Part shown: piece after piece, positions 51,036 through 53,553 of the stretch
How the letters are laid out: each line of letters opens with the position of its first letter
Position numbering within the stretch: the stretch's first letter is position 1
Source of the DNA: Granulicella sp.
GTDB lineage: Bacteria; Acidobacteriota; Terriglobia; Terriglobales; Acidobacteriaceae
NCBI GenBank assembly: GCA_027365345.1
Contig: DAHXNO010000188.1
Coordinates: 1 to 53,553, forward strand
Reading direction: 5' to 3'
DNA length: 53,553 bases
The notes under the pieces: generated by a model
The model's database searches: none
What the model saw: only the letters and a program-made list of their open reading frames with translations
Told to the model about the DNA's origin: nothing
Position numbers and translations under genes: made by a program

Positions 51036-51081
51036 TCGGGCGGCCGGGCGCCGACTCTACAGGCCGCGCAGCCTTCTGCTT

Positions 51082-51229
51082 GAGCTCCGGCGTCGAGCAT
51101 TTTTCCCGTAGGTGTAGTCCAGCAGATTGAGAGGTATGGGCGTTTCCCCCAATGAAAACGCCACTGCACAATCGCTTTTGGACACCCATCAACGGGAAAA
51201 ATGCTCTCGACCGTCCGGGCTTTGAGCTC
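51082..51229. repeat. Palindromic element between mnmE and the SWIM gene
   Basis: The ends are inverted repeats: GAGCTC (51082-51087) and GAGCTC (51224-51229) on the outside, and GCATTTTTCCCGT (51097-51109) against ACGGGAAAAATGC (51192-51204) inside, with GTCGA/TCGAC flanking the inner arms. A small central hairpin, GGCGTTT/AAACGCC (about 51139-51162), lies between. The whole reads like a short non-coding mobile or structured element, or a complex terminator. Confidence 0.5.
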
Positions 51230-51296: not shown

Positions 51297-52346
51297 TCAG
51301 TTCCGGGCCGATCTAAGTTTGCGGGGTTCGGCTACCTGCTTCTTGTTTGCCTTCTTCTTCGCTTTCTTCTTTGCCACCGGCAGGGATGGCGCGGTGGGCT
51401 TTGCCTTGGTCTTTACAGCTTTCTGGGCCATAGCTTTTTTCGCCGCCGCCTTTTTGGCCACGGCTTTTTTGGCCGCTGCTTTTAAGGCCGCAGTTGTCTT
51501 TTGCAGCCTGGGCGGTGCGGCGGTCGGCTGGGGTTCGGTTTTGCGCGTTTGCGGAGTTTTGCGTGTTTGTGGGAGTGGCGCGGCCTGGGCGACGCGCCCG
51601 GGTTTTGCTGAAGGCGTGGAGCTGGCCGGCGGGGTGGCGTCAGCCATGTCCAGCCCAAAGAGCTTGGAGAGATCCTCGCCTCCAAGCGCCTTTGCGGGAC
51701 TCTGCTTCGCGCCTGGAAGCGACTTGCCGGCGCTGGCGATGAGCTCCTGTTCGTTTACAGCGCGCAGGCGAAAGAGCAGCTCGGGCTGTTGATCCAGACG
51801 AGCGCCCACGCCATAGAGAACTGCGGCGACATGCTTGCACATCTCCGCCCAATCCGGACAACTGCAGGACAGCTTGATCTCTTTGGGCGACGGGAAGAGC
51901 CCAGTCTGCTGCCGGCTGATGCGCTCCATGACGCCTTTGGAGAGCCGGCCTTGCAGGAGTTCGACGAGAGAGTCGATCGATCCGGCGCAATCGGCACAGA
52001 TCGATTTCCAGCGCGGCTGGGCAACCGGAAGGATTTCCACTTTGACGGTGTAGATCTCTGAGCCGCTGACCAGCGCGGTGATCTGGCCTGCTTCGATCTG
52101 CAGATCGACCACCGAGCCGTTGCGCAGGTAGGTTCGGCCGCGGGGCAGGCGGTTGGAGAAGTCGCTGTAGGACTCCAGGTTCTGGCACCACGCCTTGCCC
52201 CAGAAGGTGGCGGCGATGGTGCGGCCCGGGATGTTGACCGGAGAGATGGTTCGGCCCTTCTTGCGCAGGCTTTCCATCTTCTGCAACGCCTTGCGGCGGC
52301 GCTCGGCTACCGGTACATACGGTCTCCATCCATAGCTGTCATACAT
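51297..52346 (-). CDS. SWIM zinc-finger protein with histone-H1-like Lys/Ala tail
   Basis: A 349-residue protein. The N-terminal half has the motif set of bacterial SWIM proteins: GRTIAATFWGKAWCQNLESY, RTYLRNGSVVDLQIEAGQI, then the zinc site CSCPDWAEMCKHVAAVLYGV (CxC..CxH). From about residue 235 the protein becomes Ala/Pro/Lys-rich, and the last 80 residues contain repeated AAAKKAVAKKAAAKK-type units that resemble eukaryotic histone H1 tails and are expected to bind DNA non-specifically. It starts three bases after the stop of the SNF2-family gene, so the two form an operon and probably act together on DNA or nucleoprotein. Confidence 0.85.
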   Translation of the reverse strand: MYDSYGWRPYVPVAERRRKALQKMESLRKKGRTISPVNIPGRTIAATFWGKAWCQNLESYSDFSNRLPRGRTYLRNGSVVDLQIEAGQITALVSGSEIYTVKVEILPVAQPRWKSICADCAGSIDSLVELLQGRLSKGVMERISRQQTGLFPSPKEIKLSCSCPDWAEMCKHVAAVLYGVGARLDQQPELLFRLRAVNEQELIASAGKSLPGAKQSPAKALGGEDLSKLFGLDMADATPPASSTPSAKPGRVAQAAPLPQTRKTPQTRKTEPQPTAAPPRLQKTTAALKAAAKKAVAKKAAAKKAMAQKAVKTKAKPTAPSLPVAKKKAKKKANKKQVAEPRKLRSARN

Positions 52347-52349
52347 GCG

Positions 52350-53553
52350 CTATGCCTCCTTGAGCGCCGAGTTCAGGTCCAGCGCAACCAATTTGAGCAG
52401 TTCGTCGTCCTTCATCTCGGTGAGCAGCAGACCGGCTCCGCCTTCCAGCATATCCTGCGCAATCTGGCGTTTGGATTCGATCATGGCGTCGATCTTCTCT
52501 TCGACCGTTCCCTGGCAGACGAACTTGTGCACCAGAACGTTCTTGTTCTGCCCAATGCGGTAGGCGCGGTCTGTGGCCTGGTTCTCCACGGCGGGATTCC
52601 ACCAGCGGTCAAAGTGGACCACATGCGAGGCCGCGGTCAGATTGAGTCCCGTGCCTCCCGCCTTGAGGGAGAGGACAAAGAATCCCACCGACTCATCTTC
52701 CTGAAAGCGGCGCACCAGATCCTTGCGAGCCTTTACCGGAGTTTCGCCGTGCAGCACCAGGCCGGGGCGTCCGAAGATGGAGCCAAGAAAGGACGCCAGC
52801 GGGGCGGTTACCTCGCGAAACTGGGTGAAGACCAGCACCTTCTCCTGGCGGGCCGCGATCACTTCCGCGATGTCGCGCAGACGGGCCCACTTGCCGCTGT
52901 CGGCTTCAGTCCAGGCGCTATCGCCCAGCCACTGCGAAGGGTGATTGCAGATCTGCTTGAAGCGCATCAGGAAGGACAGGACCAGCCCCTTGCGGCGGAT
53001 TCCTGTGGCCGTATCCAGCAGCCGGGCGAGGTCGTCCACCGCCTGTTGATAGAGCGCGGCCTGCTTGCGGCTGAGCTGGCAAAAGGCCTTGACTTCGGTC
53101 TTATCCGGCAGATCGGAGATGACCGAGGGATCCGTCTTGAGTCGGCGCAGAATGTACGGCCGGACCAGTTCCCGCAATGGGCCGTAGGGGTTGTGGGTGC
53201 GATCGGCGAGACGCCTGGTGAGCCGGGTGAACTCCTTTGCCGACCCCAGCAGCCCGGGATTGATGAAGTCGAAGATGGACCACAGATCGCCGAGGCGGTT
53301 TTCGACGGGAGTGCCGGTGAGTGCGAAGCGGGAGTCCGCCTTGAGCAGCTTGGCGCTGCGGGTCTGCCTGGCGTTGGGGTTCTTGATGGCCTGGGCTTCG
53401 TCCAACATCGCCAGACGCCAGGAGGTTTCTGTGAGCCAGGGAAGACGCAGCAGCGCGCCGTAACTGGCGATGACCACATCGACCTCCGCCAGGGAGTCCG
53501 CGGAGAGGCTCTTGAGCTGGTCGCTGGACATGGCGGAGGTATGGGCGACCAGG
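52350..53553 (-). CDS. SNF2-family DNA-dependent ATPase/helicase (5' end cut by window edge)
   Basis: The visible part is about 400 residues of a Swi2/Snf2 ATPase. Motif II reads LDEAQAIKNPNARQT (DEAQ box), motif III ALTGTPVENRLGDLWSIFDF, then helicase-C motifs VLVFTQFREVTAPLASFLG, LSLKAGGTGLNLTAASHVVH and DRWWNPAVENQATDRAYRIG. P-loop motifs I/Ia are missing only because the frame continues past the right edge; codons upstream of an internal ATG at 53531 (LVAHTSA) are family-like. Bacterial members include RapA-like and phage-defence ATPases. It is followed at three bases by the SWIM gene. Confidence 0.92.
   Translation of the reverse strand, partial: LVAHTSAMSSDQLKSLSADSLAEVDVVIASYGALLRLPWLTETSWRLAMLDEAQAIKNPNARQTRSAKLLKADSRFALTGTPVENRLGDLWSIFDFINPGLLGSAKEFTRLTRRLADRTHNPYGPLRELVRPYILRRLKTDPSVISDLPDKTEVKAFCQLSRKQAALYQQAVDDLARLLDTATGIRRKGLVLSFLMRFKQICNHPSQWLGDSAWTEADSGKWARLRDIAEVIAARQEKVLVFTQFREVTAPLASFLGSIFGRPGLVLHGETPVKARKDLVRRFQEDESVGFFVLSLKAGGTGLNLTAASHVVHFDRWWNPAVENQATDRAYRIGQNKNVLVHKFVCQGTVEEKIDAMIESKRQIAQDMLEGGAGLLLTEMKDDELLKLVALDLNSALKEA

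Follow-up and report, generated by a model that had tools for sequence, protein, structure and literature searches.

The window analysed here is the whole of contig C67 (53,553 nucleotides), one of the 208 contigs of a Granulicella genome. It ends with part of a SNF2 ATPase gene and a gene for a SWIM zinc-finger protein that carries a long basic C-terminal tail. The initial annotation saw in this arrangement a chromatin-remodeller-like design, in which the tail gives the pair its own DNA-binding platform, and also noted that such tails may arise by repeat slippage. The question raised by the locus is whether the tail is a working part of a DNA-acting machine or a dispensable expansion.

The SNF2–SWIM Gene Pair

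The following features were located, the coordinates being those of the window unless another contig is named.

52350..53552, minus strand: SNF2 ATPase, C-terminal 400 codons (DEAQ, TGTP and RAYRIGQ motifs; SNF2-rel_dom and Helicase_C by Pfam)
Contig C172, 61921-63462: first 514 codons of the SNF2 gene, including DDMGLGKT (motif I lies on this half)
51297..52346, minus strand: SWIM zinc-finger protein of 349 aa (open reading frame and Pfam SWIM)
51732..52346, minus strand: conserved SWIM core, residues 1–205 (FWGKAWC and the SWIM ligands; predicted model mostly at pLDDT >90)
51300..51647, minus strand: basic tail, about residues 234–349 (net charge +0.24 per residue; pLDDT about 50–62)
51418..51491, minus strand: local AKKA array (15- and 30-base periods, 78–80% matches)

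The SNF2 frame ends at position 52350 and the SWIM frame starts at 52346, both on the minus strand, leaving the three intervening bases (52347–52349) that had been noticed from the sequence. The SNF2 gene runs off the window. Its other half, whose recovery the initial annotation had suggested, closes contig C172, and the ends of the two contigs share 7 bases in frame (overlap judged by eye). Since C172 carries the first half and these shared bases, the complete protein should be about 912 aa long, with all motor motifs. The gene is interrupted by the contig boundary only, and a truncated pseudogene was ruled out by the finding of the missing half at the end of C172.

The closest relatives at this locus belonged to the Acidobacteriaceae. 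Among 127 loci of the subfamily sharing the tail, 114 had a SNF2 gene at most 120 bases upstream of the SWIM start, which makes the pair real and tight. Among the 13 others, eight had a SNF2 gene at another distance and three had none detected (L059 and L176, situated at a contig end, and L083, which was not). The best SNF2 match of L095 was downstream of the SWIM gene, and in L180 the SNF2 was split into two annotated frames.

The Motor and the SWIM Core

The motor could be classified as a SNF2 ATPase by its SNF2-rel and Helicase_C domains and its motifs I, II, III and VI. In the relative L026, the 907-aa SNF2 contained DUF3670, SNF2-rel_dom and Helicase_C. Motifs I, II, III and VI were found in 82, 84, 82 and 83, respectively, of the 84 SNF2 frames longer than 800 aa. 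SNF2/Rad54-type enzymes work on double-stranded DNA, and the nearest solved relative of the motor, with L026 as the query, was the Sulfolobus Rad54-like protein 1z63 (E 2.3e-128), which we take to belong to a dsDNA translocase family and which is compared here through the motor alone. An excerpt of PMC5512222 calls SsoRad54 SWIM-associated. Pfam showed no nuclease domain in either the SNF2 or the SWIM protein.

The SWIM protein matched the Pfam SWIM model (PF04434) at 22.1 bits, above the cut-off of 19.6, of which some relatives fell slightly short. The canonical CxC..CxH site reported at the outset corresponds to C161, C163, C170 and H172, and a CxC-n-CxH pattern was present in 128 of 128 SWIM proteins of the tailed group. 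Within residues 1–205, 34 columns were invariant in 86 sequences, including FWG, WC, PRGR and the CxC...CxH ligands. A PDB sequence search with the core gave no match up to E 1, and Foldseek gave none against the PDB at E ≤ 0.001; assignment to a known fold was rejected, the best Foldseek match, ZSWIM8, reaching only E 0.089.

When 395 genomes of the phylum were searched, 88 gave matches, which fell into an upper set above 200 bits and a lower set at about 150 bits or less. From the lower set, called subfamily B, 29 loci were read (26 from the phylum search and three from plasmids). A quick tree was built from 151 cores, with L104, L174, L092, L130, L171 and L173 left out; 69 of its 148 inner branches were weak. 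In it, the tailed group and subfamily B were separated with a support of 100. Subfamily B is the SCO1167/SCO6262-type pair (NF058637) and resembles the tailed group: both have a SNF2 gene ahead of a SWIM gene that shares the core. The two differ in their scores against NF058637, which has a cut-off of 1200: the one B-type SNF2 scored, from Streptomyces, reached 1518, whereas full-length SNF2 proteins of the tailed group stayed below it at 566, 573 (L026) and 593, and the window half alone gave 411.

Distribution and Neighbourhood

The pair was patchy. Of 200 genomes in the family, 14 matched, a figure that counts the window's own genome and one match that was weak and partial; none of the six other genomes of the genus did. 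The core matched 139 of 72,556 plasmid records, for example from Bradyrhizobium and Paraburkholderia, with 54 matches at 60–80% identity. One cultured carrier is the legume symbiont Paraburkholderia phymatum STM815, in which the pair is on plasmid pBPHY02 (locus L186). It also matched ten IMG/VR contigs, in some of which DUF2924-like genes adjoined it, and a single one of 50,697 annotated phage records, at 34% identity. The pair looks accessory and mobile.

A constant third partner gene was sought by clustering the flanks and was rejected: the largest family, Fic, was present in 9 of 126 loci, flanks of more than 1.5 kb being available on the 5' side in just 66 loci and on the 3' side in 80. 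In four loci a gene for a RecD-like helicase lay upstream of the SNF2–SWIM genes, and in one of these it was followed by a DUF1186/SEC-C protein:

L026, 1-1337: RecD-like helicase
L177, 3611-5812: RecD-like helicase
L190, 1-1294: RecD-like helicase
L052, 3-1610: RecD-like helicase

SEC-C motifs were visible in the flanks of three loci. Toxin-antitoxin genes, integrases and one restriction endonuclease each occurred in single loci.

In the Granulicella genome itself, a second, fused SWIM–SNF2 protein of 885 aa is encoded on the minus strand of C172 (L109, 862-3519), divergent from the SNF2–SWIM pair and a few kilobases away. Between the two SNF2 loci lies a gene for an AAA ATPase (ATPase_2, 378 aa; L109, 3954-5090) with a copy of a palindromic repeat at each end. 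In the window, this hairpin-forming repeat of about 110 bases occupies positions 51080–51205 (fold z −5.5). It had 33 matches in the genome, two of them partial, and was found in seven of 12 genomes of the same genus and none of eight others sampled. Six copies were situated in the final 25 kb of C172, where about 0.2 would be expected, this stretch having been picked after the copies were seen. Copies flank the SNF2–SWIM pair on both sides. An Rfam search with the repeat gave no match, and we describe it as MITE- or REP-like.

The patchiness, the plasmid matches and the neighbouring Fic, toxin-antitoxin, integrase and restriction genes are consistent with an anti-phage or anti-plasmid defence module, a role compatible with the tail anchoring the pair to DNA. 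The motor is also similar to the SNF2 motors of Zorya (ZorD) and Dpd (DpdE), and the SWIM protein weakly matched the PADLOC candidate model PDC-S62 (24.1 bits, E 3.1e-6). However, the motor stayed under the NCBIfam cut-offs of both ZorD and DpdE (NF041790, the ZorD model, requires 1500 and L026 gives 305 bits), the flank clustering gave no constant partner gene, the phage records gave only one distant match and neither protein has a nuclease domain by Pfam. A defence role is possible, but we regard it as rather unlikely.

The Basic Tail and Its Helix-Turn-Helix Extensions

The tail of the window protein begins after the FGLD sequence (about residue 233), extends over 116 residues and was modelled without structure. 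The initial annotation had described some 80 residues of AKKA-type repeats. The basic tail is real, but its tandem part covers just about 25 residues, the remainder being rich in lysine, alanine and proline without clear repeats. Tandem repeats were found with a period of 15 bases (3.7 copies, 51436–51491) and of 30 bases (2.2 copies, 51418–51483), and a further 12-base period at 51339–51375. The AKKA array was absent in this form from the five closest relatives and is partly inside an insertion that they lack; the array itself is local to the window lineage.

The likeness to histone H1 that had been proposed stands for the composition, which is of the AKKA type as in chlamydial Hc2 and other bacterial H1-like proteins, and did not extend to kinship: Pfam HC2 (PF07382) gave no match to the window protein at E ≤ 0.01 and matched one of the 86 family members, a different protein. 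Unlike Hc2, in which the number of lysine pentamers is variable (PMC2848022), the SWIM tail is an appendage on a zinc-finger protein. A parallel is offered by actinobacterial topoisomerase I, which likewise ends in C-terminal H1-like lysine repeats that raise the processivity of the enzyme; according to PMC7398561, loss of the repeats of Streptomyces TopA leads to more dissociation and less processivity, with velocity unchanged. The topoisomerase repeats sit on the enzyme, whereas those described here sit on the partner of the motor and, in one clade, are accompanied by a helix-turn-helix (HTH) domain.

Pfam HTH_3 was found in 19 of 86 members at E ≤ 0.01. On the tree, 26 of 27 HTH members belonged to a single clade, which has 29 rows (SH-aLRT 95) and is characterised by a Cro/C1-type domain at the tail end; L053 was counted after recovery by a wider regular expression and L125 after addition by eye. 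The three other rows of this clade (L063, L068 and L074) had basic tails only, and the remaining HTH member, L175, was isolated on a long branch. In nearly all cases a basic stretch preceded the HTH, the exceptions being L091 and L175, in which the stretch was not basic overall. The simplest reading of the tree would be that the basic tail came earlier and that the HTH was gained later. The addition of an HTH at the same end in relatives points to a DNA-binding platform.

Other endings were also observed. L182 ended in an AbiEi_4 match too weak for the cut-off of that model (E 0.011). Six Acidobacteriota tails (L117, L118, L119, L120, L031 and L020) carried, at or near their ends, a short motif resembling KRRAISERMRKYWAxRR, and Pfam named nothing at the motif in the one such tail scanned, L031.

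The strongest rival target for the tail is RNA: the tail would bind RNA or ribosomes, and the pair would act on R-loops, transcripts or ribosome assembly. An exact AKKAxAKKA sequence was found elsewhere in the genome in just two open reading frames, both ending in AKKA-type tails, which from our reading of the sequences look like RsfS and uL22:

L191, 916-1680: open reading frame read as RsfS or uL22, with an AKKA-type tail
L194, 1048-1578: open reading frame read as RsfS or uL22, with an AKKA-type tail

An RNA target stays in consideration because these two tails are read in this way. Against it, the nearest solved relatives of the motor are SNF2/Rad54-type enzymes, which act on dsDNA, and an entire clade is characterised by the Cro/C1-type HTH, which is a DNA-binding fold. 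In the part of PMC6821194 consulted, prokaryotic DNA-binding proteins are enriched in lysine-rich low-complexity regions, and lysine-rich peptides are reported in RNA binding too. On balance, RNA as the target seems doubtful.

Retention of the Tail in Relatives

Relatives were searched for with SWIM residues 1–230, that is, the core and a short stretch beyond it, the tail being excluded from the query. Among 86 complete proteins one had no tail, and 83 of the 85 tails, the window's included, carried a net charge of +0.1 per residue or more: SWIM homologues do retain the tail. Its length in the 86 proteins ranged from 0 to 202 residues with a median of 76.5; counted past the core, lengths ran from 48 to 232. 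A strict test of the end required at least 30% K/R in the last 30 residues together with a net charge of +25% or more. It was passed by 45 of 86 SWIM proteins and by none of 281 other open reading frames from these loci that were 180 aa or longer; these controls are crude calls, 171 of them with a gene-like codon-position GC pattern. With weaker cuts the counts were 65 of 86 against 12 of 281 (net +20%) and 80 of 86 against 47 of 281 (net +10%).

In a wider set, which overlaps with most of the 85 tails above, 110 of 124 tails reached +0.08 per residue, compared to 0 of 28 complete SWIM ends in the sister subfamily B. This count omits L092, L104 and L174 (no tail or a cut one) and L158, and L170, L171 and L173, which carry an identical tail sequence, are each counted. 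The tail of L075 was slightly acidic, and L092 ended at residue 198. Of the 14 tails under the cut, an HTH was found in just L060, L091 and L175, and L182 had the AbiEi_4 match described above; the idea that an HTH replaces weak basic tails as a rule was dropped on this count.

It had been reasoned at the outset that a tail missing from close relatives, or highly variable in length, would probably be a dispensable repeat expansion. The five closest relatives found all keep the tail, with a net charge of +0.20 to +0.26 per residue in these and the window protein, and the length does vary, from 85 to 145 aa with many indels in these six. Among the six, dN/dS was 0.34–0.79 for the tail (alignable codons of a gappy alignment) versus 0.11–0.24 for the core. 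The sequence and length of the tail drift while its charge is kept. From these comparisons, the tail is a kept feature of the subfamily across many kinds of bacteria and not a private expansion.

A low-complexity expansion by repeat slippage, with a core that functions without the tail, could explain the short periodic arrays of the window lineage, the AKKA array located partly in an insertion missing from the five closest relatives and the spread of tail lengths. The tail also matched the low-complexity end of an unrelated NCBIfam valine–tRNA ligase model (20 of 1783 bits), so its composition is not family-specific. Yet the basic charge recurs throughout the tailed group and is missing from the sister subfamily, dN/dS in the tail is below 1, and HTH domains occur at the same end. 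The tail is encoded with 12 AAA and 12 AAG codons and with all four alanine codons, and this mixture is unlike fresh slippage. Slippage is in our opinion quite improbable as an explanation of the tail. A docking arm for a protein (the SNF2 or an acidic partner) instead of nucleic acid is less probable still: although the tail accompanies the SNF2 of the tailed group and not that of the B type, the former is not more acidic than the latter (median net charge of the last 880 residues +2 in 84 frames and +3 in 22 frames, respectively), clustering of the flanks gave no recurrent third gene, and an SNF2 so near neutral offers no obvious acidic dock, which makes docking on it less likely.

Proposed Model

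We propose, as moderately probable, that the two genes encode an accessory dsDNA translocase that has spread horizontally, and in which the flexible basic tail of the SWIM protein serves as a nonspecific electrostatic DNA anchor. In this model, SNF2 would be the ATP-driven motor and the SWIM protein its dedicated partner, which would bind it; we infer that the two form a complex that moves along DNA. The tail would grip DNA without sequence preference, as the lysine repeats of TopA do, and keep the complex on DNA. Such an anchor could increase residence time or processivity, or create a second point of contact, through which pulling would loop or twist the DNA and strip proteins bound to it. 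In the clade with an HTH at the same end, the anchor would be more selective.

A DNA-binding platform, as supposed in the initial annotation, is thus the best-supported reading of a tail that is kept and that has an HTH at the same end in relatives, though as a property of the subfamily and not of one protein. The chromatin-remodeller-like design is a tentative comparison based on the SNF2 motor family. Several observations argue against an anchor: 14 of 124 tails are under the charge cut and only three of them show an HTH, the dN/dS of the tail is well above that of the core, the tail alignment is gappy and tail lengths vary widely, the other two AKKAxAKKA proteins of the genome look ribosome-linked, and Foldseek found no PDB relative of the SWIM core at E ≤ 0.001.

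SNF2–SWIM pairs are widespread and were already known, with no settled role in the literature searched. PMC10910872 contains a SNF2 passage and a SWIM passage, neither concerning the pair, and titles and abstract beginnings, in a search with most subscription journals outside its coverage, gave no paper on a basic tail of bacterial SWIM partners. What is new here is the charge-conserved, sometimes HTH-extended end of the SWIM partner. More tentatively than for the anchor itself, we suggest that the pairs may constitute an as yet unnamed family of DNA translocases with two subunits, mobile and spanning several phyla, with a constant motor and a SWIM protein whose DNA-targeting end is exchangeable (a nonspecific basic tail, a basic stretch followed by a Cro/C1 HTH or, in rare cases, some other HTH-like ending), in other words a bacterial remodeller with swappable targeting. 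The nearly constant presence on the partner of a charged or folded end of a nucleic-acid-binding type provides a direct handle on the function of the motor, and the subfamily offers a natural comparison of one motor anchored either nonspecifically or with the guidance of an HTH.
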